This document shows, in pieces, positions 618-58,141 of a stretch of 64,000 bases of DNA. The notes beneath the pieces are model-generated. The model made no database searches. It saw only the letters and a program-made list of their open reading frames with translations, and had not been told where the DNA came from. Source of the stretch: an uncultured Bacteroidales bacterium. GTDB lineage: Bacteria; Bacteroidota; Bacteroidia; Bacteroidales; UBA932. Within the stretch, counting starts at the first letter, position 1. Each line of letters starts with the position of its first letter. Made by a program: the position numbers and the translations under genes. The stretch is from assembly GCA_944323775.1 (NCBI GenBank), contig CALUTT010000011.1:62001-126000 (forward strand). The letters are read 5' to 3'.

Positions 618-3600
618 ATGTCTAAAGAAAAGAAATTCATCACCTGTGACGGCAACCAGGCTGCATCGAACATAGCGTATCTGTTCAGCGAGCACGCCGC
701 CATCTACCCGATCACACCGTCATCGACCATGGCCGAGAATGTTGACGAGTGGGCCGCTCACGGAAAGAAGAATCTGTGGGGTGAAACCGTAAAGGTCACC
801 GAAATGCAGAGCGAGGCCGGAGCTGCCGGAGCAGTTCACGGATCACTGCAGGCAGGTGCGCTCACGACGACCTTCACGGCATCTCAGGGACTGCTCCTGA
901 TGATCCCCAACATGTACAAGATTGCCGGCGAGATGCTCCCTGCGGTATTCCATGTTTCCGCCCGCGCTCTCGCATCCCACGCCCTGTCCATCTTCGGTGA
1001 CCACCAGGATGTAATGGCCTGCAGGCAGACCGGCTTCGCCATGCTTGCTTCAGGGTCAGTCCAGGAGGCACAGGACCTGGCTGCGGTTGCACATCTCTCC
1101 GCAATCAAGGCTTCAGTGCCTTTCCTCCATTTCTTCGACGGATTCCGCACCTCTCACGAGATACAGAAAATCGAGGCGATAGACGAGGCCGACCTCAAGT
1201 CAATGGTAAGCGAGAAGGCTCTTGAGAACTTCAGGGCCCGCGCACTCAATCCCGAGGCGCCCGTGACAAGGGGTACCGCACAGAACGGAGACGTATACTT
1301 CCAGGCAGTCGAATCCCGCAACGGAGTATATGATGCTGTTCCCGACATCGTGGCCCGCTACATGGGAGAGATCGGGGAACTTACCGGACGCCAGTACCGC
1401 CCGTTCGAATACTATGGAGACAAGGACGCAGAATGCATCATCGTCGCCATGGGATCCGTCACCGAGACGATAAAGGAGACCGTCGACTACCTCTCCGAGC
1501 ACGGACGCAAATACGGCGTGATCACCGTTCACCTCTACCGTCCTTTCTCCGAGAAATATCTCCTCAAGGTTCTCCCCAAGAGCGTGCGCAAAATCGCAGT
1601 CCTCGACAGGACGAAGGAACCGGGAGCACTCGGAGAGCCTCTCTTCCTTGATGTCAAGGCTCTGTTCCAGGGCAAGGAGAACGCTCCCCTCGTAATCGGA
1701 GGACGCTACGGTCTTTCATCAAAGGACACCACCCCCGCCCAGATCATTGCGGTATTCGACAATCTCGAGCGCAAGGATCCCAAGGGAGACTTCACCATCG
1801 GCATACTCGATGACGTCACCTTCAAGAGCCTGCCCACCAAGGCTGAGGTTTCAATCGTGAAGAAGGGCACCACAGAATGCAAGTTCTACGGACTCGGTTC
1901 CGACGGAACCGTAGGTGCCAACAAGAACACCATCAAGATTATCGGAACCCACACTGACCTGTACAGCCAGGCATACTTCGACTACGACTCAAAGAAATCC
2001 GGCGGATACACCTGCTCTCACCTCAGGTTCGGCAAGGCTCCCATCAAGGCTCCTTACCTTGTCAACACACCGGACTTCGTGGCATGCCACGTCCCTTCAT
2101 ACCTCGAGAAGTATGACGTGCTCAAGGGCATAAAGGAAGGGGGCAGCTTCCTTCTGAACTCCCTCTGGAACGAGGAAGAGACAGTCAAGAGGCTTCCTGA
2201 CTTCGTAAAGGCCGTCATCGGACGCAAGAAGATCAGATTCTACATCATCAACGCCACAAAGATAGCCGCAGAGATAGGACTCGGTGGCCGCACCAACACA
2301 ATACTTCAGAGCGCATTCTTCCGCATCAGCGGAATAATCCCCGTTGACGACGCCGTCAAGTACATGAAGGACGCAGCACTCAAGTCATACGGCAAGAAGG
2401 GCGAGAACGTGGTCAACATGAACTACGCGGCAATCGACCGCGGCGGCGAATACGTCGAGGTCAAGGTTCCTGCCGAGTGGGCAAGCATCAACGCCAAGTT
2501 CATCAACCACAATGCAGGCCGGCTCGCCACTCCTTTTGTAAAGGAAATAGCCGACGTGGTCAACGCCCAGTGCGGAGACTCCCTTCCCGTCAGCGCATTC
2601 CTCCCCTACATGGACGGAACCATGCCTGCAGGAACTGCCGCATATGAAAAACGCGGCGTCGCAGTCAATGTACCCGTATGGGATCCCCAGAAATGTATAC
2701 AGTGCAACACCTGTGCTTTCGTCTGCCCTCATGCTGCAATCCGTCCGTTCCTGCTTACCGCAGAAGAGGCGGCTTCGGCTCCCAAGACCATCAAGCTTGC
2801 TGACGGCAAGGCAAACCTCAAGGACTACAAGTTTGCGATCTCGATATCCGTGGCAGACTGTACGGGCTGCGGCAACTGCGTCGACGTATGTCTCGCAAAG
2901 GACAAGGCACTGAGCCTCGCACCCTATATCGACAATACTGACGAACAGGCAAACTTCGACTACCTCAACGCCAAGGTCGGATACAAGACTCCGTTCGATC
3001 CCAAGTCCAACATGAAGAATTCACAGTTCGCCCAGCCGCTGTTCGAGTTCTCCGGAGCATGCGCCGGATGCGGCGAGACCCCTTACATCAAGAACATCAC
3101 CCAGCTGTTCGGCGACCACATGATGATTGCCAACGCGACGGGATGCTCTTCAATCTACGGAGCTTCGTTCCCTGCATCTCCCTACTGCACCGATGTTCAC
3201 GGACACGGCCCGAGCTGGCAGAACTCCCTGTTCGAGGACAATGCCGAATTCGGCCTCGGAATGCACGTCGGCTCCGACAGGATACGCCAGACTGTCGCTT
3301 CCCTGATGGAAAAGGCTTCCGGATGCGACAAGTGCACGGACGAGATGAAGGAACTCTTCGCCAAGTGGCTTGCCAACCGCAACGACTACGCAACGACACG
3401 CGAAGTCACCGACAAGCTCGTTCCTATGCTTGAAGGCAGTGACTGCGACTCATGCAAGGCCCTGCTCAAGCTCAAGCAGTACATCCCGGCCCGCAGCCAG
3501 TGGATATTCGGCGGAGACGGATGGGGCTACGACATCGGATACGGCGGACTCGACCATGTGCTTGCCTCCGGCGAGAACGTCAATGTGCTCGTGCTTGATA

Positions 3601-4145
3601 CCGAGGTGTACTCCAACACCGGCGGACAGTCATCCAAGTCCACACCTGCCGGAGCAATCGCCAAGTTCGCGGCTTCCGGCAAGAAGATCCGCAAGAAGGA
3701 TCTCGGAATGATGGCTATGAGCTACGGATACGTATATGTCGCACAGGTTGCGATGGGTGCAAGCCCTGTACAGTACCTGAACGCCATCAAGGAGGCCGAG
3801 GCATATGACGGTCCGTCACTGATCATCGCGTACTCTCCTTGCATCAACCATGGCCTCAAGGCTGGCATGGGACTCAGCCAGAAGGAAGAGAAACTGGCCG
3901 TAGAATGCGGTTACTGGCATCTCTACCGCTACAACCCCACTCTCGAGGAGCAGGGCAAGAACCCCTTCACACTCGACTCTAAGGAACCGGACTGGAGCAA
4001 GTTCCAGGACTTCCTGAAGGGCGAGGTCCGCTTTGCATCACTTTACAAGCTGTTCCCTGAAAACGCTGCAGAACTGCTCCAGAAGACGGAAGAGTTCGCC
4101 AAGCTCAGGCTTGAGACCTACAAGAAGCTCGCAGGGAAAGCATAA
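618..4145 (+). CDS. nifJ: Pyruvate:ferredoxin (flavodoxin) oxidoreductase
   Basis: Homodimeric PFOR of 1175 residues, the usual single-chain bacterial length. It converts pyruvate and CoA to acetyl-CoA, CO2 and reduced ferredoxin in anaerobic energy metabolism. The N-terminal pyrimidine-binding domain includes YPITPSSTMAE. A two-cluster ferredoxin insert has KCIQCNTCAFVCP near residue 694 and DCTGCGNCVDVC near 748. The C-terminal TPP-binding domain carries GDGWGYDIGYGG and the Mg-binding NTGGQSSKSTPAG (about 960-1010). A conserved CAGCGETPY cluster ligand precedes it. The ATG at 618 is preferred over a TTG nine bases upstream because MSKEKKFITCDGNQA matches family N-termini. A small ferredoxin at 9589-9762 is a possible electron acceptor. 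Confidence 0.97.
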   Translation: MSKEKKFITCDGNQAASNIAYLFSEHAAIYPITPSSTMAENVDEWAAHGKKNLWGETVKVTEMQSEAGAAGAVHGSLQAGALTTTFTASQGLLLMIPNMYKIAGEMLPAVFHVSARALASHALSIFGDHQDVMACRQTGFAMLASGSVQEAQDLAAVAHLSAIKASVPFLHFFDGFRTSHEIQKIEAIDEADLKSMVSEKALENFRARALNPEAPVTRGTAQNGDVYFQAVESRNGVYDAVPDIVARYMGEIGELTGRQYRPFEYYGDKDAECIIVAMGSVTETIKETVDYLSEHGRKYGVITVHLYRPFSEKYLLKVLPKSVRKIAVLDRTKEPGALGEPLFLDVKALFQGKENAPLVIGGRYGLSSKDTTPAQIIAVFDNLERKDPKGDFTIGILDDVTFKSLPTKAEVSIVKKGTTECKFYGLGSDGTVGANKNTIKIIGTHTDLYSQAYFDYDSKKSGGYTCSHLRFGKAPIKAPYLVNTPDFVACHVPSYLEKYDVLKGIKEGGSFLLNSLWNEEETVKRLPDFVKAVIGRKKIRFYIINATKIAAEIGLGGRTNTILQSAFFRISGIIPVDDAVKYMKDAALKSYGKKGENVVNMNYAAIDRGGEYVEVKVPAEWASINAKFINHNAGRLATPFVKEIADVVNAQCGDSLPVSAFLPYMDGTMPAGTAAYEKRGVAVNVPVWDPQKCIQCNTCAFVCPHAAIRPFLLTAEEAASAPKTIKLADGKANLKDYKFAISISVADCTGCGNCVDVCLAKDKALSLAPYIDNTDEQANFDYLNAKVGYKTPFDPKSNMKNSQFAQPLFEFSGACAGCGETPYIKNITQLFGDHMMIANATGCSSIYGASFPASPYCTDVHGHGPSWQNSLFEDNAEFGLGMHVGSDRIRQTVASLMEKASGCDKCTDEMKELFAKWLANRNDYATTREVTDKLVPMLEGSDCDSCKALLKLKQYIPARSQWIFGGDGWGYDIGYGGLDHVLASGENVNVLVLDTEVYSNTGGQSSKSTPAGAIAKFAASGKKIRKKDLGMMAMSYGYVYVAQVAMGASPVQYLNAIKEAEAYDGPSLIIAYSPCINHGLKAGMGLSQKEEKLAVECGYWHLYRYNPTLEEQGKNPFTLDSKEPDWSKFQDFLKGEVRFASLYKLFPENAAELLQKTEEFAKLRLETYKKLAGKA

Positions 4146-24681: not shown

Positions 24682-25371
24682 ATGACAGCCGAACTTGAGG
24701 CCAAACTTAAAGACTGGGCCGAGAAATACAACGACCCAGTCTTTTTTGATACTGACCCTATAATCTTCCCCAAAGAGTTTGCTCGGCGCGGTGCAGGCCT
24801 GATGGACATTGAGATAGCGGCCGTATTCGCGGCTCATTTCGCATGGGGAAGAAGAGCCATGATAGTGCGCGACTGCGAGAGGTTCTTCGACTACATGGAA
24901 TGGCGGCCGGCGGACTATGTGATGTCCGGATGCTGGAGAGACGACCAGACAAGTATCCACCGCACCGTGAAGTGGTCGGACACGGCACGCATATGCGCAA
25001 GGCTCAAGGACTACTACACATGCCACGGCTCGCTGGAAAGCCTGGACAGCAAGCAGATCAGGGAGACAGTATACGGGCAGAAGCCCGACCCCAGGGCTCC
25101 CGACAAGAAAATAAACATGATGCGAAGATGGATGGTGCGCCGGGACGGCAGAGTCGACCTCGGCCTTTGGAGGGAAACGTCACCCTCTTCCCTGGTCATT
25201 CCTCTGGACGTACACGTCTACAGCCAGGCCTCGGCACTCGGACTGACTTCGCGCAGGCAGAAAGACCTTCTGACTGCAATGCAGATAACTGATGCGTTCA
25301 GGGAGATATTTCCCGACGACCCTGTCAAGGGAGACTTCGCCCTGTTCGGATACGGAATAGACCATGCCTAA
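24682..25371 (+). CDS. TIGR02757 (DUF2400) family protein
   Basis: 229 residues of a family widespread in Bacteroidetes and some Proteobacteria, without an assigned function. Recognisable parts are DTDPIIFPKEFARRG near the start, FAAHFAWGRRAMIVRD, and NMMRRWMVRRDGRVDLGLW with PSSLVIPLDVHVYSQA towards the end. The helical pattern and the RRD..DLGLW element suggest a helix-hairpin-helix DNA-glycosylase-like relation, which is inference. It overlaps the zeta-like kinase gene by eight bases. Confidence 0.85.
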   Translation: MTAELEAKLKDWAEKYNDPVFFDTDPIIFPKEFARRGAGLMDIEIAAVFAAHFAWGRRAMIVRDCERFFDYMEWRPADYVMSGCWRDDQTSIHRTVKWSDTARICARLKDYYTCHGSLESLDSKQIRETVYGQKPDPRAPDKKINMMRRWMVRRDGRVDLGLWRETSPSSLVIPLDVHVYSQASALGLTSRRQKDLLTAMQITDAFREIFPDDPVKGDFALFGYGIDHA

Positions 25372-25948
25372 CTTGTACATAATATCCGGATGCAACGGTT
25401 CAGGAAAGACGACGGCGTCATATACCCTGCTTCCGGACATACTTGACTGCAGGCAGTTCGTCAACTCCGACGAGTTCGCCAAAAGTCTCTCGCCGTTCGA
25501 CCCGTCGGCAGCATCCGTGACCGCCAGCAAGTTCATGCTGATGAGAATTCACTACCTCCTCGGCAGATATGAGGATTTCAGCGTAGAGACAACGCTCGCC
25601 ACACGCTCGCTGCTCAACATTATCGCGGAAGCCCACAGCGTAGGCTATGAAGTGACGATACTTTATTTCTGGCTGAACTCTCCCGAGCTCGCGATACGCA
25701 GAGTCAGGGAAAGGGTGGCGTCGGGAGGGCACAACATCCCGGACAGCGTCGTGAGAAGACGCTACATAATGGGGCTGAACTACCTGTTCAACACATACAT
25801 ACCTGTCTGCGACAGGTGGATACTCGCCGACAACTCCAAGTCTCCGTTCACCATAGTGGCGGAAGGGACAAAACACCTGACCAGAATCAACGACAACGAA
25901 AAATACAGACTTATTAGAAGCATAATATACCCTGATGAAGAATACTGA
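25364..25948 (+). CDS. Zeta-toxin-like P-loop kinase
   Basis: 194-residue P-loop protein of the zeta toxin/UDP-GlcNAc-kinase-like family. Walker A is GCNGSGKT (residues 9-16). It is followed by NSDEFAK (acceptor-binding Asp), FSVETTLATRSLL, and the lid RVRERVASGGHNIPDSVVRRRY, a very typical zeta-like segment. Classic zeta toxins phosphorylate UDP-N-acetyl sugars and pair with an epsilon antitoxin. No epsilon-like gene is present: the neighbours overlap it on both sides (8 and 14 bases). A metabolic or repair kinase role inside the operon therefore seems more likely than a toxin-antitoxin system. Confidence 0.85.
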   Translation: MPNLYIISGCNGSGKTTASYTLLPDILDCRQFVNSDEFAKSLSPFDPSAASVTASKFMLMRIHYLLGRYEDFSVETTLATRSLLNIIAEAHSVGYEVTILYFWLNSPELAIRRVRERVASGGHNIPDSVVRRRYIMGLNYLFNTYIPVCDRWILADNSKSPFTIVAEGTKHLTRINDNEKYRLIRSIIYPDEEY

Positions 25949-40310: not shown

Positions 40311-41390
40311 TTAGATCTTGATATTTTCGATAGGTTCGGCCTGGACAGGGTCAACCCTTTCGCTGATGTACTTCATCTTCTTGAGGTCCGCATTGCCAAG
40401 ATCCAGGCAGCGGATCGTGGAGTTGTTCATTGTCCTGAAGAAGACACGTCTTCCGGACAGATCCGTCACTATGGTGATCTGTGTCGCGCTCTGGACACCG
40501 GCGGGAGACTCCCCTTCACCGTTGTCTATTCCCACGGGGATGTCGAAATTGTTCATTATATGGAACGCCAGCACGGCGGCGTCAGTCGTGTTGTCCATCA
40601 CCGGAGCCGTACTCTGGAAGAATGCCGCGCGCACGAACCTCGAAGGAGGGGTCACGTCACCGGGAAGGCCGAGACCCGCACTGCCCGCACCGAAGGATGT
40701 CATCTTGAGACGGTCAATTGTCTTGGACGGAACCGTGCCAGGGGCCAGGTTCACGTAATTGTTAAGGTTAGTCATCTGCCAGTCGAATGAAGGAGAGTTG
40801 GTGAGGACTCCGAGCTCATTCTCGTAGAAAATGCATTTGCCTCCGATAATCTCAAGCACTATCTGGCGTCCGCTCTGTTCGGTGAACCTCCAGTGGACCG
40901 TCGAAGCCCTGGGATCGATTCCGTGCACATGTGTGGAAAGGACCATGTCCTTGACCTCGTCCACGGTTGCGCAGCTCCCGAGAATATAGCTTACAAGCTG
41001 GAAATCGGAAATGCTGTTCGATTTAGTCTGGTCGGTAAGGGCCTCGTATCCTCCGTAGTTCGGGAAGTAGAAGAGTCCTGCGCCAAGTCCTTTCTCGTTC
41101 ACACCCTCCATCACGAACTCAGGCTGCTCCACCGAAAGGCCGACATAGGAATACTTTGCGGTAAAAGCCATTCCCTGGGCTCCGCCAGGAAGCATGCTGT
41201 ACTGTGTTTTACCGGCAGGCACCGCCACATAGTACTTGGCAAGGTCCGACGCTCCCCACTCTATTGTCCTTGCGGTGACGGTACATCCTCCTGATGTCTT
41301 GAGAGTTATGCCTGTACAGGCATCGAGTCTCTGGCCAAAAGCCACGGCAATCGCTGCGACTGCCAGCATGGCAAGATAAATCCTTTTCAT
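40311..41390 (-). CDS. Choloylglycine hydrolase-family Ntn hydrolase, secreted
   Basis: 359 residues with a signal peptide whose cleavage before Cys would expose the nucleophile of the mature enzyme (DACTGITLKT). The conserved Arg (TARTIEWG) and NNFDIPVGI segment are those of the bile salt hydrolase / penicillin V acylase family. Members cleave linear amides such as conjugated bile acids or acyl-homoserine lactones. Specificity cannot be assigned. The gene is divergent from the HTCS-like regulator across 71 AT-rich bases. The ATG at 41390 gives a good signal peptide. Confidence 0.88.
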   Translation of the reverse strand: MKRIYLAMLAVAAIAVAFGQRLDACTGITLKTSGGCTVTARTIEWGASDLAKYYVAVPAGKTQYSMLPGGAQGMAFTAKYSYVGLSVEQPEFVMEGVNEKGLGAGLFYFPNYGGYEALTDQTKSNSISDFQLVSYILGSCATVDEVKDMVLSTHVHGIDPRASTVHWRFTEQSGRQIVLEIIGGKCIFYENELGVLTNSPSFDWQMTNLNNYVNLAPGTVPSKTIDRLKMTSFGAGSAGLGLPGDVTPPSRFVRAAFFQSTAPVMDNTTDAAVLAFHIMNNFDIPVGIDNGEGESPAGVQSATQITIVTDLSGRRVFFRTMNNSTIRCLDLGNADLKKMKYISERVDPVQAEPIENIKI

Positions 41391-41448
41391 AAGCTGTAAG
41401 TAAGAATACACCTATTTTCCGTAAATTTAATAATATAATAATTAATTG

Positions 41449-41461: not shown

Positions 41462-44400
41462 ATGAAAAAGTTCGTCATTCTTCTGCTTCTCGCCATCTCC
41501 GCCCTTCTGCCTTCCCACGCTCAAAGGGCGAGGATGTATACCCCGGCGGAAGGATTGCCGAACAGCAGGATAAACAGCATCATGCAGGACAGGACCGGAT
41601 TCGTGTGGATATCCTCCGGGAACGGCCTGACAAGATTCGACGGAAGGGAGTTCCGGCACTTCCACTCGGACAGAGAGGGGGCATGGCAGCTGGCCGGCGA
41701 TCTTGTCCTGAAGACATTCCAGGACAGCCGCGGAAGGATTTGGGTGGCAACGGCCACGGGACTTCAGACTTACAACCCTTCCGACGGGACGTTCTCAACG
41801 CTCATCCTTGACGACCGCGCTCCATTTGCCAGCACCTCATATCACATCACGGACCTGATCGAGGTCAACACACAGAGCGGGAACCAGGAAATCTGGGCGG
41901 CGACATACAAGAACGGACTGTTCATAATCGACGCCGGCTCCGGTACCATTCTCACTGACAGGAGCACGGCAGTGAACGCAAGGCTGGACCAGCGGTCCGT
42001 TGACAGACTTTTCGCAGACTCCAACGGGCAGGTATGGATCGCATACGGCGAAGGCGGACTCAGCGTGCTGAGCGCCGAGGACCTTGACATCCAGAGCGGA
42101 ATCCGCATCGACATGCCAGAGGCTGTCAACATAAGAGAGGTCACGGTCAGTCAGTTCATTGAGGACAGGGCCAGCGGCAACGTGATAATATGTTCTCCAA
42201 ACTTCGGGATACTTGTCTATGACAGCGCGACGAGAAGCATCTCCCGCTCGAGGGACAGCAGGGCCAGAAACTGCCGGGCCATGTCCATCATAGCCGACAA
42301 CCTGCTCATGCCGAGCGGAAGCAGCTACCTCGTCGGTACCGAGAACCACGGCCTGTGGAGCTATAACATACTCACCGACAGGATGGCTGCACTCCCTGAC
42401 GGCGCCATTCCATATGATGCCTCCAACTGGAAGATACACAGCCTGATGACAGACAGTCAGGGAAACATCTGGATCGGAGTCTATGAAAGGGGAATACTCG
42501 TCATCCCCAATCCTATGTACGGTTTCGAATATACCGGAGTGACATCGCCTTTCATCGACAAGGATTTTCCTGAAGGTTGTGTGACTGCGATCCTCAGAGA
42601 CCCCGCAGACAGGTCTATGTGGATCGGGACTGACGGATACGGGCTGATGAACATACGGCAGGACGGATCCAGAAAGTTCTATGACACCGGCAACTCCAGG
42701 ATGACAGACAACACGGTAATGTCTCTGGCGGCCGACCGGCACGGCAAGATCTGGATAGCCACATTCAGCGGAGGACTCTATGTAATCTCGGCAGGCACGG
42801 GGCCGAGGCTGTTCAGCGACTCCAAGAAACTCGGGACCATGAAGACCGTAGACCTGGCTTACGACGCGATCGACGACGTGATGTATGTCGGCACACACAG
42901 CGACGGACTTGCCGTGATAGATCCGGCCACGGAAAAGATCACCTCCAGCATTTGCGATGACGCATGCAAGTGGATAAGCTGCCTGTATACAGACCGCGAC
43001 GGAATGCTCTGGGTAGGCACATACAACGGGCCGATGGTCTACAACGACAGGATGAACAGGATCATCCGGTACAATCTCGCTGACAAAAGCATGAATGCAA
43101 GAATCCACTGTTTCCTTCAGGCCGATGACGGGACAATGTGGATGGGCACGGGCGACGGACTCTATGCCTTTGACCGCACAAACGGAGAAGAAAGAAGGTA
43201 TTCCGAGAAAGACGGCCTGAGCAGCAACGTGATTTACGAGCTCCTCCAGAGTTCCGACGGTGACATATGGATAGCCACGGCCTTCGGCCTTTCCAAGCTG
43301 GATACCAAAAGCGGCTCGGCCATGCGGTATTACGCTTCTGACGGGCTGCAGGAGAACGAATTCCATCAGAGAGCCGCAATGGCCGACAGCGACGGGAAAC
43401 TCCACTTCGGCGGGATAAACGGAATCACATCATTCTACCCGCATTCGGTCGAGCGCAAGCCTCATTCAGTTCCGGCAGTGATGTTCACCGGAATAAGCGG
43501 GACGGACTGCATCCCCGCCGACATGTCCTCCCTCCAGGACAACGGGGTCACACTCCCCTGCAGCGGGAACAGCATTTCCGTGAAGTTCACATCTCTCGAG
43601 TTCTCGAATCCGGACAAACTGCGGTACGCCTACATGATGGACAGAGTGGACAGACAATGGAAAACGGCGGATGCATCGTCAAGCGCGACATACACCAACC
43701 TCGCGCCGGGAAAATACACGCTGAGGGTCAAGGCCTATTTCGAGAACAGCCCTGATGACTTTTCCTCTTCCGAACTACGTGTTACCGTAAATCCGCCATG
43801 GTACTTCTCATCCTGGGCGATAGCCGGGTACTGCCTTGCACTCGCTCTCGGGACCGTGGTGTTCCTGTTCGGCCTGCAGAGACACCTTCGTAACAGAAAA
43901 AGAATCATGCAGGCAGAAAGGGATCAGGACAGGCTGCAGGCCATATCGGACATATCCCGGGTGATATGCACTCCCCTGAACCTTGTTGTGACTCCCCTGA
44001 AGGAACTTGCCGACTCTGAAAAAGATACACACAGGAAAGGGATCATGGACCTGATGTACAGGAACTGCCTGCGCGTGCAGAGTCTCGTTGAACAGATGGC
44101 CGGTACCGCATCCACAGAGTCCACGGCTGAAGACCGGAAGACAGACAGCCCCGCCCAGGGAGTTACTCAGGATCCAGATGCCGTGCAACGGACATCCAAG
44201 GCAAGGAAGAACATAGTCGTCGTCGACGATGATCCCGAGACAAGGAAGTTCATGGCCATGGAACTCGGCAGCCAATACAACGTCAGAGCCCTGGAGGGCG
44301 GCAGGGACGCATGGGATCTGATATCTTCTTCTGTCCCCGACGCCGTCCTGACCGAAGTGATTTCCGACGGGATGAGCGGATATGAACTGTGTTCAAGGAT

Positions 44401-45046
44401 CAGACACAACCTCCTGACCAGCCACATCCTTGTAATTATACTCACATCGGTGCACGACCAGGAAAGTGTTCGGAAGGGAAACGAATGCGGAGCCGATCTG
44501 TATCTTACCAAGCCGGTACCGATGGATATACTCAAGAGCAGCATTGCAAACCTGATTTCTACAAGAGAGACTCTGCGCAGGAAATTTGCCATGGACGCCG
44601 GCATCAACTACGGGAAGAATGCCGGTGACACCGGTCCGAACAACGGGGAGGAAGATTTCAAGGACAAGGCCGTAAGGATAATAACCGAACGCATGAAAGA
44701 CCCCGGATTCGGAGTCGAGGCATTGAGCAGAGAGCTGGGGATAAGCCGTGTGCACCTGAACAGGAAGCTCAGGGAAGTAACCGGGACGTCCCCGGGGGCG
44801 CTCATACGCACCATCAGACTCCGACAGGCGGCATTCCTGATGGTCAAGACCGGCATGAACATATCGGAAGCAGCATCGAAGACGGGGTTCGCCACCGCAT
44901 CGTATTTCTCAAGCTGTTTCCATGACAATTTCGGCATGTCCCCCAAGGAATTCATGAGGAAATGCCGGGACAAGGAGGAACTCGCATCGCTGAAAAACAT
45001 TTTCGGAGAATCCTTTATCAATGAAATTGCCACATATGAAAAATAA
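41462..45046 (+). CDS. HTCS-like sensor-regulator lacking a functional kinase
   Basis: 1194 residues. Order: signal peptide (1-20), two-component propeller repeats (about 22-670; e.g. INSIMQDRTGFVWISSGNGL), Y_Y_Y domain (about 705-765), one membrane helix (about 780-805), a short DHp-like helical region (about 815-880), a receiver (918-1035) and an AraC-type HTH (about 1075-1185). In ordinary HTCS proteins a His kinase with an HATPase domain of more than 100 residues sits between helix and receiver. Here the segment aligned with SHEFRTPL reads SRVICTPL (Arg833 for His), and the ATPase boxes are absent, replaced by a 35-residue polar linker. The receiver keeps the acidic cluster D922-D924 and the TKP lysine but has Glu965 in place of the phospho-accepting Asp. 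The frame is open throughout. It probably controls the adjacent symporter/GH43 genes. Confidence 0.93.
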   Translation: MKKFVILLLLAISALLPSHAQRARMYTPAEGLPNSRINSIMQDRTGFVWISSGNGLTRFDGREFRHFHSDREGAWQLAGDLVLKTFQDSRGRIWVATATGLQTYNPSDGTFSTLILDDRAPFASTSYHITDLIEVNTQSGNQEIWAATYKNGLFIIDAGSGTILTDRSTAVNARLDQRSVDRLFADSNGQVWIAYGEGGLSVLSAEDLDIQSGIRIDMPEAVNIREVTVSQFIEDRASGNVIICSPNFGILVYDSATRSISRSRDSRARNCRAMSIIADNLLMPSGSSYLVGTENHGLWSYNILTDRMAALPDGAIPYDASNWKIHSLMTDSQGNIWIGVYERGILVIPNPMYGFEYTGVTSPFIDKDFPEGCVTAILRDPADRSMWIGTDGYGLMNIRQDGSRKFYDTGNSRMTDNTVMSLAADRHGKIWIATFSGGLYVISAGTGPRLFSDSKKLGTMKTVDLAYDAIDDVMYVGTHSDGLAVIDPATEKITSSICDDACKWISCLYTDRDGMLWVGTYNGPMVYNDRMNRIIRYNLADKSMNARIHCFLQADDGTMWMGTGDGLYAFDRTNGEERRYSEKDGLSSNVIYELLQSSDGDIWIATAFGLSKLDTKSGSAMRYYASDGLQENEFHQRAAMADSDGKLHFGGINGITSFYPHSVERKPHSVPAVMFTGISGTDCIPADMSSLQDNGVTLPCSGNSISVKFTSLEFSNPDKLRYAYMMDRVDRQWKTADASSSATYTNLAPGKYTLRVKAYFENSPDDFSSSELRVTVNPPWYFSSWAIAGYCLALALGTVVFLFGLQRHLRNRKRIMQAERDQDRLQAISDISRVICTPLNLVVTPLKELADSEKDTHRKGIMDLMYRNCLRVQSLVEQMAGTASTESTAEDRKTDSPAQGVTQDPDAVQRTSKARKNIVVVDDDPETRKFMAMELGSQYNVRALEGGRDAWDLISSSVPDAVLTEVISDGMSGYELCSRIRHNLLTSHILVIILTSVHDQESVRKGNECGADLYLTKPVPMDILKSSIANLISTRETLRRKFAMDAGINYGKNAGDTGPNNGEEDFKDKAVRIITERMKDPGFGVEALSRELGISRVHLNRKLREVTGTSPGALIRTIRLRQAAFLMVKTGMNISEAASKTGFATASYFSSCFHDNFGMSPKEFMRKCRDKEELASLKNIFGESFINEIATYEK

Positions 45047-45058
45047 TTGGTAACTTTG
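45027..45058 (+). promoter_or_regulatory. Promoter of the GPH symporter-GH43 operon
   Basis: TTG (45027-45029), 21 bases, then TAACTTTG (45051-45058). It overlaps the stop codon of the HTCS-like gene, so that regulator may be separately transcribed from its neighbours. A regulator site could not be picked out. Confidence 0.65.
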
Positions 45059-45095: not shown

Positions 45096-46520
45096 ATGGC
45101 ACTAAAGAATTCTGAGGCCAATGGCTTCTTCAAGCTAAACTGGGTTCAACGTATAGGATTCGGGTCAGGAGACCTGGCGCAGAACCTTATCTATCAGACG
45201 ATCAGCATGTATCTGCTGTTCTTCTACACGAATGTCTTCGGACTCGATCCAGCAGCCGCCGCACTGATGTTCCTGGTAGTTAGAATCGTGGACGTAATCT
45301 GGGATCCGATTGTGGGAGCTTTCGTAGACAAGCGCAACCCCAAGCTCGGAAAGTATCGTTCGTACCTGGTGCTGGGCGGCATTCCCCTAACGGCATTTGC
45401 AATACTCTGCTTCTGGAACGGCTTTTCCGGCTCACTGCTCTATGCCTATGTAACCTACGTGGGAATGTCAATGTGCTACACCCTAGTGAACGTGCCATAC
45501 GGAGCCCTGAATTCATCCCTGACGCGTGACACAGACGAAATCACAATACTTACCTCTACCAGAATGTTCATGGCCAACATCGGCGGACTCGCGGTATCCA
45601 TGGGTATTCCTGCCATGGTGAAGCTGTTCTCCGACGGATCCGCCGTTGCAGGAGAGGAAGCTCTCCCGGCTGACGGAAGCGCATGGTTCATGACTATGTT
45701 CATATACTCCGTTGTCGGACTGGCTCTGCTTGTTTTCTGCTTCAGCCAGACCAAGGAGAAGGTAGTGATGGACGAGAAGGAGACAGCCAACGTGAAGGTC
45801 TCCGACCTGTGGACCGAGTTCGGGCGCAACAAGCCGCTCAGAGTCCTCGCTTTCTTCTTCATCACGGCTTTCGCCATGATGTCAATAAGCAACGCATCCG
45901 GCTCATACTACATGACATACAACATACACTCGACCACGGCCGAGATGTCAATATTCATGGGACTGGGATCAATCCCTGCATTCATATTCATGCCGATGGT
46001 TCCGGCCATCAAGAAGAAGATAGGCAAGAAGGGAATGTTCTTCCTCTTCCTTACTGTGGCTGTCATCGGAATGGTGATGCTGTATCTCGTATCCGTAATC
46101 GACGCGCTCAAATCCCAGATGTGGATAGTTTATGCCGCCCAGTTCATCAAGTCTACCGGCATCATCGTCGCCACCGGATACATGTGGGTACTTGTTCCTG
46201 AGGTCGTATCGTACGGAGAATACACCAGCGGGCGCCGCATCGCGGGAATAGTCAATGCCCTCACAGGCATCTTCTTCAAGGCAGGCATGGCTCTCGGAGG
46301 CGTCGTTCCCGGACTCGTGCTCTCGATAGTGAACTTCAACGCCAAGGAGACTTTCCAGACTCCGGCCGCCGAGCAGGGAATACTCTGGCTCGTATGCGTA
46401 CTGCCCATGCTGCTCGTTTTCCTCGCCATGTTCATCATCAGCAAGTATGACCTCAGCGACGAGAAGATGGACGAGATCAACCACGCCATAGAGCAGAGAC
46501 TGAGCAAATCCGAAAACTGA
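45096..46520 (+). CDS. GPH-family sugar:cation symporter (MFS)
   Basis: 474-residue 12-helix transporter of the glycoside-pentoside-hexuronide family. Recognisable parts are GSGDLAQNLIYQTISMYLLFFYT, the loop DVIWDPIVGAFVDKRNPKLGKYRSYLV, which is diagnostic of GPH carriers, and VNVPYGALNSSLTRD. It imports short glycosides with Na+ or H+. With the GH43 28 bases downstream, xylo- or arabino-oligosaccharides are the likely cargo. Confidence 0.93.
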   Translation: MALKNSEANGFFKLNWVQRIGFGSGDLAQNLIYQTISMYLLFFYTNVFGLDPAAAALMFLVVRIVDVIWDPIVGAFVDKRNPKLGKYRSYLVLGGIPLTAFAILCFWNGFSGSLLYAYVTYVGMSMCYTLVNVPYGALNSSLTRDTDEITILTSTRMFMANIGGLAVSMGIPAMVKLFSDGSAVAGEEALPADGSAWFMTMFIYSVVGLALLVFCFSQTKEKVVMDEKETANVKVSDLWTEFGRNKPLRVLAFFFITAFAMMSISNASGSYYMTYNIHSTTAEMSIFMGLGSIPAFIFMPMVPAIKKKIGKKGMFFLFLTVAVIGMVMLYLVSVIDALKSQMWIVYAAQFIKSTGIIVATGYMWVLVPEVVSYGEYTSGRRIAGIVNALTGIFFKAGMALGGVVPGLVLSIVNFNAKETFQTPAAEQGILWLVCVLPMLLVFLAMFIISKYDLSDEKMDEINHAIEQRLSKSEN

Positions 46521-46547: not shown

Positions 46548-47531
46548 ATGAAAACCAAGAAAAGGTATCTTTGGCCCTCTGACTACATGGCCGACCCTTC
46601 CGTTCATGTCTTTGACGGAAAACTCTACATCTATCCCTCCCATGACTGGGAGTCAGGCATTCCGGATGACGATTTCGGAAGCGAATATGACATGAAAGAC
46701 TATCATGTGCTTTCTCTGGAAGGCGATGATCCCATGACCTCTCCCGTAAAGGACAACGGAGTTGCGCTTAAACGTGAGGACGTCAAGTGGGCCGGACGCC
46801 AGATGTGGGACTGCGATATCGCCCGCAAGGACGGGAAATACTACCTGTACTTCCCGATGAAGGACAAAAACGACATATTCCGCATCGGAGTGGCCGTAGG
46901 TGACAGACCCGAAGGACCTTTCGTCCCCGAACCCGATCCGATGAGAGGCAGCTACTCGATCGACGTCTGCGTCTTTGAGGAGAACGGCGAATACTATCTT
47001 TATTTCGGAGGAATATGGGGAGGACAGCTTCAGAGATACCGTGACAACAAGGCACTCGACACAGGCTCGACTCTTCCGGAAGACGACCAGCCGGCGCTCA
47101 CAGCAATGGTGGCAAAGCTCTCTGACGACATGCTGCAGTTCGCCGAAGCTCCCAGGCCTGTCGTCATCCTCGACGAGAACGGAAAGCCTCTGACGGCAGG
47201 AGACAACTCACGCAGATTCTTCGAAGCCGGATGGCTCCACAAGTACAACGGCAAATATTACTTCAGCTACTCCACCGGAGACACCCACCTGCTCTGCTAC
47301 GCAATAGGCGACAACCCTTACGGGCCCTTCACCTACAAGGGACAGATCCTGACTCCCGTAATAGGATGGACCACCCACCACAGCATAGTCGAGTTCAACG
47401 GAAAATGGTGGCTGTTCTTCCATGACAGCGGCCTGTCAAAAGGCGTGAACTGCCTTCGCAGCCTCAAGGTATGCGAGCTCACATACCGCGAAGACGGCAC
47501 GATCGAGACCATAGACGGCATGGACGAATAA
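46548..47531 (+). CDS. Glycoside hydrolase family 43, cytoplasmic
   Basis: 327-residue single-domain GH43. Five-blade propeller features are SDYMADPSVHVFDGKLYIYPSHD (catalytic base Asp), WDCDIARKDGKYYLYFP (middle acidic residue) and FFEAGWLHKYNGKYYFSYS (general acid Glu), then TTHHSIVEFNGKWWLFFHDS. GH43 members are beta-xylosidases, alpha-L-arabinofuranosidases or related. There is no signal peptide, so it acts on imported oligosaccharides; the adjacent symporter supports this. It ends before a strong terminator. Confidence 0.93.
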   Translation: MKTKKRYLWPSDYMADPSVHVFDGKLYIYPSHDWESGIPDDDFGSEYDMKDYHVLSLEGDDPMTSPVKDNGVALKREDVKWAGRQMWDCDIARKDGKYYLYFPMKDKNDIFRIGVAVGDRPEGPFVPEPDPMRGSYSIDVCVFEENGEYYLYFGGIWGGQLQRYRDNKALDTGSTLPEDDQPALTAMVAKLSDDMLQFAEAPRPVVILDENGKPLTAGDNSRRFFEAGWLHKYNGKYYFSYSTGDTHLLCYAIGDNPYGPFTYKGQILTPVIGWTTHHSIVEFNGKWWLFFHDSGLSKGVNCLRSLKVCELTYREDGTIETIDGMDE

Positions 47532-56202: not shown

Positions 56203-56220
56203 CACTATTGAAAAGGTTTG

Positions 56221-56913
56221 ATGATGACTCAGATTCTGATAATCGAAGACGAGGCGGACATCAGGGAAATCCTCGGCTTCAACATCGAGGATGCGGGATA
56301 CAAGGTCCTGCTTGCCGAAAGTGCCGAGCAGGGACTCGAGATGCTGACCTCCGACGTGTCCCTGATTCTTCTGGATGTCATGCTGCCGGGGATGTCAGGC
56401 TATCAGTTCGCCAAAAAGATACGGACCGACCTGCACAACACCGCCCCCGTCATATTTCTCACCGCCAGGAATACCGAGAATGACGTTCTGACCGGATTCT
56501 CGGCCGGAGGGGACGACTACATCGCGAAGCCGTTCTCGATCAACGAAGTGCTCGCACGCATCAAGGCAGTGTTGCGCCGAACTGCCGACAGTTCGTCCCA
56601 GCCCGACACAATAGAATTCGGAGAACTCAGGATAGACTTCAGGAACGAAACCGCGACCTTCTCCGGCAGCCAGCTTCCGCTCTCCAGAAGGGAGTTCGAC
56701 CTGCTGGCACTGCTGGCCAGACAGCCGGACACGTACTTTTCCCGCGCGACCATAATATCCGAACTGTGGAGAGATGCTCCATACGTTCTTGACAGGACCA
56801 TTGATGTCCACATCGCCCGTATCAGGGCTAAACTCGGAGACTACCATGACCTGATCAAGAACAAGACCGGATTCGGCTACTACATCGATTCGGACTATGC
56901 TTCCAAAGAATAG
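56221..56913 (+). CDS. OmpR/PhoB-type response regulator
   Basis: 230 residues. The receiver domain (LIIEDEADIREIL acidic pair; Asp in LILLDVMLPGMSG; Lys in DDYIAKPFS) is followed by a winged-helix DNA-binding domain (LSRREFDLLALLARQ, FSRATIISELWRDAPYVLDRTIDVHIARIRAKLG). It acts as a phosphorylation-controlled transcription factor. A TTG three bases before the first ATG is also in frame but unlikely. It overlaps the kinase gene by 17 bases. The closest named relatives are RprY and PhoP/PhoB; I cannot choose between them. Confidence 0.93.
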   Translation: MMTQILIIEDEADIREILGFNIEDAGYKVLLAESAEQGLEMLTSDVSLILLDVMLPGMSGYQFAKKIRTDLHNTAPVIFLTARNTENDVLTGFSAGGDDYIAKPFSINEVLARIKAVLRRTADSSSQPDTIEFGELRIDFRNETATFSGSQLPLSRREFDLLALLARQPDTYFSRATIISELWRDAPYVLDRTIDVHIARIRAKLGDYHDLIKNKTGFGYYIDSDYASKE

Positions 56914-58141
56914 ACAGATACTCACGATAAGCGGGATATTCGTGTTTTTCGCGATTCTCTCGGTTCTCATCGGAACTGTCAGCGAGCGCAACTACAAGCA
57001 GGCCGTACTGTCTTCCAAGCTTGAGGCGTTCTGTGACGTGATTGCCGTAACGGGACCGACAGACACCCTGGCGAAAGCCCTCCCTGGCGGGATGCGGGTA
57101 AGCATATTCGACCTTCAGGGCAACGTGGAATACGATTCTTTCCATGACGCACAGACCATGGACAACCACCTCACGCGGCCAGAGGTACAGTCATGTCTGA
57201 AGAACGGCAAGGGGCATTCGATAAGAGTGTCGGACACGTCGGAAGAGAAATTCTTCTACTTCGCAAAGGCATATCCCGGCAAAATCATACGCTGTGCCCA
57301 GTCCTACCAGATGCACCGCGAAAGCTTCCCGGGCAGTGACCGCATGCTTCTGCTGAGCATCTTCCTCCTCCTGGTCATAGCGCTTCTTGTAATCTTCCGC
57401 GTCAGCGAAATGTACAATCGCAGGGAAAACGAGGAAGCGGACAGGGAAAGACGAAGGCTCAAGCACGAACTTACCGGGAACATTTCCCATGAACTCAAGA
57501 CCCCGGTCAGCAGCATCCAGGGATATCTCGAGACCATAGTGAACCACCCCGAGATGGATGAGCAGAAACGGCAGCTGTTCATCGAGCGCTCATACCTCCA
57601 GGCGCTCCGCCTCACAGACCTTATCACGGACATCTCCCTGATAACCAAGCTCGAAGAAGTCCCGGAACAGTTCAAGATAGAACCGGTAAACATCAAGATA
57701 GTCTTCTCCGAAGTGTGCGACGAGATGTCAGAGAGGCTTGAAAGTGCAGGAATCACCACAATAAACGAGTTGCCTCCTATTTGCATAAGAGGCAACTACA
57801 ATCTGATATATTCCATTTTCCGCAATCTCGTGGAAAACACCGTCAAGTATTCCGGGGGGAACTGCACGGCAGTCATAATGTGTACCGAGGATTCACAGAA
57901 AGGCCACTGCTTCACCTACATGGACACCGGCAAGGGCGTCAGGGAAGAGGAGCTCGAGAAAATATTCGAGCGCTTCTACCGTCTTGGCACAGACCGGAAC
58001 AACCCGCAGGGCGGTTCCGGTCTCGGCCTGTCAATCGTAAGGAACGCAGTGCACTTCCACCATGGCAGCATCAAGGCTTACGTGATACCGGGCGGCGGGC
58101 TCGGGTTCCGCTTCAACTTGCTTGACCTCAAGACTACCTGA
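56897..58141 (+). CDS. Sensor histidine kinase (PhoR-like)
   Basis: 414 residues. Two membrane helices (about 8-28 and 150-172) flank a periplasmic domain of about 120 residues. HisKA has NISHELKTPVSSIQGYLE, and the ATPase domain has N-box FRNLVENTVKYS, G1 MDTGKGV, F-box FERFYRLG and G2 GGSGLGLSIV. All catalytic motifs are intact, in contrast to the HTCS-like gene at 41462. It is co-transcribed with the response regulator. Its 3' end overlaps convergent htpG by eight bases. Confidence 0.94.
   Translation: MLPKNRQILTISGIFVFFAILSVLIGTVSERNYKQAVLSSKLEAFCDVIAVTGPTDTLAKALPGGMRVSIFDLQGNVEYDSFHDAQTMDNHLTRPEVQSCLKNGKGHSIRVSDTSEEKFFYFAKAYPGKIIRCAQSYQMHRESFPGSDRMLLLSIFLLLVIALLVIFRVSEMYNRRENEEADRERRRLKHELTGNISHELKTPVSSIQGYLETIVNHPEMDEQKRQLFIERSYLQALRLTDLITDISLITKLEEVPEQFKIEPVNIKIVFSEVCDEMSERLESAGITTINELPPICIRGNYNLIYSIFRNLVENTVKYSGGNCTAVIMCTEDSQKGHCFTYMDTGKGVREEELEKIFERFYRLGTDRNNPQGGSGLGLSIVRNAVHFHHGSIKAYVIPGGGLGFRFNLLDLKTT

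Follow-up and report, generated by a model that had tools for sequence, protein, structure and literature searches.

The DNA analysed here is a stretch of 64,000 nucleotides (hereafter, the window) from contig CALUTT010000011.1 (positions 62,001 to 126,000, forward strand) of GenBank assembly GCA_944323775.1, an uncultured gut bacterium of the order Bacteroidales (UBA932 lineage). At positions 41462..45046 of the window, just before the genes for a sugar transporter and a GH43 glycosidase, lies a gene for a kinase-less regulator of 1194 amino acids that resembles a hybrid two-component system (HTCS). The gene and all of its features are on the forward strand, and its open reading frame runs through 1194 codons with no internal stop, as an earlier reading of the letters without database searches (the sequence-only reading) had stated. 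After a signal-peptide-like start, a periplasmic beta-propeller sensor with nine Reg_prop stretches in Pfam occupies approximately 41525..43501, and is followed by a Y_Y_Y domain (residues 714-776; 43601..43789) and, behind a PPWY motif, by a probable membrane helix (43814..43879) whose limits were set by eye. The cytoplasmic part consists of a DHp remnant (43886..44119), a linker of residues 885-912 (44114..44197) at the site of HATPase_c in relatives, a Response_reg receiver domain (residues 918-1028; 44213..44545), and an AraC-type HTH_18 DNA-binding domain (residues 1088-1166; 44723..44959). Pfam thus confirms the domains that the sequence-only reading had named, and the helix was recognised by eye. 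The best solved relatives in a phmmer search are the HTCS-type sensor structures 3v9f and 4a2l, to which the propeller matches, and 12aw, a chain named hybrid two-component system protein, matches the receiver-AraC part. HTCS ancestry is indicated by 35-45% identity across the sensor and DHp region and by a like gene neighbourhood. The Reg_prop/Y_Y_Y sensor, membrane helix, and AraC-type output of an HTCS are all present, whereas a HisKA domain with its His, HATPase_c, and the phospho-Asp of the receiver (the domain itself being present) are all absent. By sequence, the architecture is that of a one-component regulator, with sensor and DNA-binding output on one chain.

In the alignment with its relatives, Arg833 (CGG; 43958..43960) stands at the phospho-His position, within SRVICTPL at residue 832, and Glu965 (GAA; 44354..44356) stands at the phospho-Asp position, within LTEVISDG at residue 963, so that the receiver fold carries a Glu in place of its acceptor Asp. 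D922-D924 and K1017 are retained in the receiver. All 35 canonical relatives keep the His, the N-box Asn, the three G2 glycines, and the receiver DD2, Asp, Thr, and Lys. A Pfam search at E<=10, a setting at which the HMMER filters still discard most matches above about 0.1, listed neither HisKA nor HATPase_c for the regulator; a canonical relative used as a positive control gave 73 bits for HATPase_c and 47 bits for HisKA (E<=1). A hidden kinase domain is therefore rejected. The His codon is CAY in 16/16 genes looked at (13 canonical and three ATPase-less), so that CGG requires two base changes, and the H+1 and H+3 residues (Val and Cys) are altered as well. A single read error cannot explain this motif, and an assembly or read error of any kind is unlikely, because several codons differ within it. 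The two substitutions, the retained receiver residues, and the missing ATPase domain thus all stand as the sequence-only reading had described them. Its polar linker of 35 residues needs a correction: the polar linker does span roughly 35 residues, and the part of it modelled as disordered has 28 (885-912). As judged from its sequence, the protein is without what a His-Asp relay needs.

An AlphaFold2 model of the cytoplasmic part, built with 20 sequences, gives two DHp helices (residues 809-852 and 856-886) at a pLDDT of 82-91, the linker at ~33, the receiver at ~90, and the AraC domain at ~86. The modelled receiver matches many solved receivers in Foldseek, some of them activated, which is no evidence of activation. 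The mean identity to the canonical relatives is 39% in the propeller, 47% in the receiver, and 51% in the AraC domain. In the DHp domain it is 41%, against 68-81% among the canonicals themselves (n=35).

These relatives were drawn from several searches, among them one of 400 genomes of the genus, 60 of which yielded matches at E<=1e-150 in 62 rows (30 of them with loci). The match ran unbroken from sensor to AraC domain in five rows, namely the window and the genomes G170, G117, G081, and G191; the remaining rows that reached the DHp domain ended at residues 880-883, where a break is expected if an ATPase domain comes next. The aligned set (n=45) comprises the 35 canonical proteins, the five ATPase-less ones, the regulator of genome G327, a distant HTCS from the window's own genome, and three proteins cut by a frame or contig end (G251, G138, and G379), which trees and counts omit; the joined-column regulator tree additionally omits ownC4, G087, and G334. 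When 398 genomes of the window's family were searched with the full-length protein (E<=1e-180), only the window and G081 matched without a break, and the three matches outside the genus had canonical lengths. A pattern scan of viral contigs found no relative. Few candidates were scored per genome (two in the genus and family searches, three or six elsewhere, and up to 48 in a family of 15 genomes), so that the counts given here are not frequencies of kinase loss. L108, which seemed kinase-less by its match span, is actually canonical, as are the order-wide candidates L139, L133, and L141; L135 gave no readable frame. In G251, the HTCS (L090, minus strand) at the same kind of locus appears as two frames, one of 1036 aa and another with the receiver and AraC domain; the gene is either damaged or misassembled.

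The four other ATPase-less proteins come from ruminant metagenome-assembled genomes (MAGs), and retain both the His and the Asp. In a second collection these MAGs bear the names RGIG8007 (water-buffalo rumen), RGIG6008 (sheep omasum), RUG470, and RUG13108, of which we take the last two, by their names, to be rumen assemblies. A fifth MAG, UBA1237, agrees at 100% with the G081 protein over the first half of its length, on a short contig that ends before the DHp domain. The G081 protein scores 34 bits for HisKA and leaves HATPase_c unmatched. The sequence-only reading had proposed a comparison of nonsynonymous with synonymous substitution rates (dN/dS) among relatives, and this could be made for the ruminant pairs; for the window protein no close relative was found. 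The values, which are rough because dS is mostly above 1, are 0.02 (DHp), 0.03 (receiver), 0.008 (AraC), and 0.12 (linker) for G081/G170, and 0.09, 0.09, 0.05, and 0.18, respectively, for G117/G191; the wider pair G081/G117 gives 0.15, 0.10, and 0.06, with a saturated linker. The ruminant ATPase-less regulators are under strong purifying selection, and the low DHp values mean that this domain is constrained even without a kinase. It should be mentioned that all four proteins (L021, L041, L042, and L043) carry an extra residue right after the phospho-Asp region (TDxxTxGxMDG).

A different state is found in G327, whose regulator has an open frame of 1373 aa. It carries an Arg at the His site with the same codon, CGG, as the window; in its ATPase region the N-box Asn is replaced by Tyr, and the G1 and F boxes are unrecognisable. 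Its receiver has Ala at DD2, which breaks the metal site, and Ser for Thr, and retains the Asp. In Pfam, HisKA scores 38 bits and HATPase_c is unmatched at E<=1. In the transporter tree, the window and G327 are sisters (100/95), and a tree that groups the window with the four ruminant genomes is rejected at p 3.7e-9, on the presumption that transporter and regulator were inherited together. The regulator tree from joined sensor and receiver-AraC columns places the window with G327 and G371 (SH-aLRT 97). Forcing all five ATPase-less proteins together in this tree costs 16.9 log units and is not rejected (AU p 0.08), and an exclusive pair of the window and G327 (1.1 log units, p 0.27) is neither required nor rejected. 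A single origin of the window and ruminant forms is thus disfavoured by the regulator tree and rejected by the transporter tree. A carboxylesterase neighbour, considered as a sign of common origin with G117, was discarded, as G117 and other genomes hold several paralogues. Because the sister G327 has the Arg, a decayed ATPase domain, and a broken metal site, loss of the relay probably preceded the deletion of the ATPase domain in the window lineage. Provided that transporter and regulator travelled together, the simplest history would begin with a shared change from His to Arg and a decaying kinase (the G327 state); the window lineage would then have lost its ATPase domain and changed Asp to Glu, and the ruminant clade would have undergone a deletion of its own.

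Kinase loss extends beyond the genus. A search of the order with a cytoplasmic profile (295 genomes, at most six candidates per genome) gave 46 rows at E<=1e-65. In two of them, those of the window and of G934 (from another family), the match continues past the DHp motif and reaches the receiver. The G934 protein (1151 aa) retains the His and Asp and has a HisKA domain, with HATPase_c unmatched at E<=1 and, by eye, Ala at the receiver DD2. In the same family (15 genomes), G943 encodes two further kinase-deleted HTCSs, in both of which HATPase_c is unmatched at E<=1 and the receiver Asp is kept. L163 is without the ATPase domain, and its HisKA score of 23 bits is below the cut-off; L162 (minus strand, 682-4074) is without both the DHp and ATPase domains, with HisKA unmatched, and its post-membrane coil leads directly into the receiver. 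Kinase loss is therefore, on the sequences compared, recurrent in Bacteroidales HTCSs, and the window is one of several cases. It is the extreme one, because the seven other kinase-deleted HTCSs seen, in two families of the order, all retain the receiver Asp. The sequence-only reading knew of no described family of this kind; these proteins are neither isolated nor one family. A search of the open-access literature, which covered the larger result sets in part, found no paper on an HTCS with a deleted kinase domain. What is new is the relay-dead state of G327, the deletion of the ATPase domain alone in the ruminant clade, and the distant family with three more kinase-deleted HTCSs.

How such a protein might work is suggested by the receiver. 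According to Gao et al. 2024 (PMC11253607), a contact called S/CHIP-DK lets HTCS receivers keep the AraC domain off DNA, and in BT4124 the replacement of the Cys-His pair of this lock permits DNA binding without phosphorylation. The corresponding motif in the window protein is SHIL (44420..44431), with Leu for Pro, and in the four ruminant orthologues it is SLIP or NLVP. The lock His is kept in 34/35 canonicals, the window, and G327, and is Leu in 4/4 ruminant proteins; the D of the lock proved unusable, as its placement is inconsistent in this subfamily, canonicals included. We consider it reasonably probable that the window gene encodes a phosphorylation-independent, membrane-tethered regulator, derived from an HTCS, that controls the sugar-transporter/GH43 locus. 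In its relatives, genes are switched on by a phosphate handed on within one protein, whereas the window protein is probably switched by shape change alone; ligand binding by itself, as the sequence-only reading suggested, may move it. A propeller dimer would bind an oligosaccharide, and the resulting change would travel through the Y_Y_Y domain, membrane helix, and DHp helical bundle. Movement of the DHp domain would shift the tethered receiver and AraC domains, set the spacing of the locked or unlocked AraC domains, and so decide whether two of them pair on DNA. The receiver would no longer be a switch worked by phosphorylation but would keep the role of a lock and a spacer, and the changes in the lock may ease the requirement for phosphate. 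With less assurance, and at somewhat short of an even chance, we extend this to the order: HTCSs would repeatedly become kinase-free, membrane-tethered regulators in which the receiver still serves as a mechanical lock. The window and G327 would form one relay-dead lineage, the ruminant and G934/G943-family conversions would be independent, and changes in the lock between receiver and DNA-binding domain would permit phosphate-free control of DNA binding by the sensor.

One observation in favour of a relay-free regulator is that the same genome encodes proteins made of a propeller, Y_Y_Y-like domain, membrane helix, and AraC domain, with no kinase or receiver (by sequence match and eye), on contigs C1 (L093, a 997-aa frame on the minus strand) and C23 (L094, a 937-aa frame on the plus strand). 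Several points weigh on the other side. The window protein retains the lock His and only its Pro is altered; the canonical G087 is also without this His, and G327 keeps HIP. The pTM of the model is 0.39, so that it does not inform the domain arrangement. No close relative was found in the genome searches, the nearest being 45% identical over residues 1-882. The sensor-only tree leaves the placement of the window unresolved, and the receiver-AraC tree places it weakly with G067, G060, and G016 (75/77); the link to G327 comes from the transporter tree and the shared Arg and, among regulator trees, from the joined columns only. Finally, the receiver-AraC branch of the window is long (1.31), as is its branch in the joined tree, and its ratio of AraC to propeller identity is 1.30, below all 35 canonicals (1.41-1.74); some relaxation of selection also fits these values.

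The last of these points leads to the question of decay, which the sequence-only reading had set aside in favour of selected function. In a genome of 1.7 Mb, regulation of the locus might have been relaxed, with the kinase, His, and Asp lost on the way to a pseudogene, and the long branch and raised AraC divergence agree with this. Drift of the whole gene was simulated with point mutations only, for the time implied by the DHp divergence (a start-to-end identity ratio of 0.55, 41/75, by the author's choice). About 22 stops are expected (minimum 10 in 200 runs) and none is observed. In addition, the third-position GC in most domains (0.64-0.72) is like that of the neighbouring genes and is lower only in the linker (0.57), and G327, in another species, has a comparable relay-dead state in an open frame. 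Simple decay of the whole gene is therefore unlikely, and we give the decay account little credence, so that the earlier judgement against decay is supported for the gene as a whole, with room for some relaxation.

A further alternative is that the protein is constitutively active or bound, with Glu965 and the altered lock keeping the AraC domain competent, output set by the expression level or other regulators, and the sensor vestigial. Glu takes the place of the receiver Asp more often than any other residue (26% of receivers without the Asp), and in some proteins it can stand in for phosphate (PMC4395418, PMC12632262); the lock Pro, moreover, is Leu in the window. This alternative nevertheless seems doubtful to us, as the sensor is open across about 780 residues, the propeller identity lies inside the canonical range of 34-50%, and G327, relay-dead by sequence, keeps both the Asp and an intact HIP. 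Glu965, in which the sequence-only reading saw a possible phosphate mimic, is not the common denominator either, because G327 has lost a metal-binding Asp instead. The DHp hairpin retained in the model, together with a canonical HTCS on contig C4 of the same genome, could also be read as a sign of a heterodimer partner or dominant-negative, which pairs through its DHp domain with another cellular HTCS and modulates the relay of that protein. We regard this as improbable: the DHp domain has diverged strongly from its orthologues, the C4 HTCS is just 29-33% identical to the window protein, and no second HTCS was found in the window. The window does contain a response regulator and a histidine kinase, encoded as a pair apart from the regulator, which would be candidate partners.

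The window protein has partial parallels among known systems. Phosphorylation-independent action of an HTCS has already been suggested for BT4236 of B. thetaiotaomicron, which has Gln for the phospho-His (PMC11253607). The window protein shares the loss of this His; BT4236 is mentioned there for its Gln and a CSIP-EK lock, whereas the window protein is also without the ATPase domain and receiver Asp. With Reg_prop/Y_Y_Y HTCSs such as the xylan regulators XynR and BACOVA_03437 (PMC8002723), likened here by type, it has in common the sensor, membrane helix, DHp fold, receiver, AraC domain, and transporter and GH43 neighbourhood, and differs in lacking the ATPase domain, phospho-His, and phospho-Asp. 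Pseudo-receivers and pseudo-histidine kinases are also known (PMC4395418, PMC12632262). Like aspartate-less receivers, that of the window keeps the fold and carries Glu where the acceptor Asp would be; unlike them, it sits in a single membrane protein together with a DHp remnant and a sensor, and the available parts of these papers cite no HTCS example. A 2025 review calls the on/off switching of bacterial pseudo-receivers still a mystery (PMC12632262). The C1 and C23 proteins share with the window protein the membrane sensor, the AraC output, and the absence of a relay; they are without a receiver and DHp domain, whereas the window protein keeps both as remnants and is for this reason likely a secondary one-component form. 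Another kinase descendant that acts without ordinary phosphotransfer is the pseudo-histidine kinase DivL of Caulobacter, which retains a domain resembling the ATPase and works by way of partner proteins. In the window protein, a sensor, a dead relay, and a DNA-binding domain stand on one chain, and like loci carry relatives whose relays are canonical, half-dead, or fully dead; the steps from relay to direct signalling are therefore open to comparison and to chimeras. An HTCS annotation alone is no proof of phosphorylation.

The likely target genes follow the regulator on the forward strand: a sugar transporter (45096..46520; Pfam MFS_2, 365 bits), which we take to be of the GPH type, and a GH43 glycosidase (46548..47531; Pfam). 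Before the transporter gene, TAACTTTG (45051..45058, forward strand) matches the Bacteroidetes -7 box, whose consensus we take to be TAnnTTTG. A relative of the transporter was found in 31/34 genomes and is no more than 15 kb away from the HTCS in 24/31, with most HTCS 3' ends approximated in this measurement. The GH43 and transporter genes are immediate neighbours in the four ruminant genomes and in G327, G251, and G371; in G587 one gene separates them. Further neighbours recognised by Pfam are a SASA esterase, a carboxylesterase, a choloylglycine-hydrolase-family protein, GH95, and a BD-FAE esterase. Around the relatives, inspection of sequence starts, with no profile, pointed to xylulokinase-like, xylose-isomerase-like, and SusC/D-like genes. 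From these genes we infer that the substrate of the locus is probably xylan or a xylo-oligosaccharide.

The four ruminant loci (L081, L082, L083, and L084) have in common a box like CAAAGGATTTGCT..ATTGAAG after the HTCS stop and before the transporter start, which is a possible operator. In the window it does not rise above chance: its one match there, with two mismatches, lies elsewhere (1.2 expected by chance). The choloylglycine-hydrolase-family protein (Pfam CBAH; 40311-41411, minus strand) adjoins the regulator, and is unexpected at a hemicellulose locus. The response regulator and histidine kinase pair lies at 56218-58141 (plus strand), about 11 kb from the regulator. A small protein at 25364-25948 (plus strand) has a GCNGSGKTT P-loop near its start and, by eye, is zeta-toxin-like or kinase-like.

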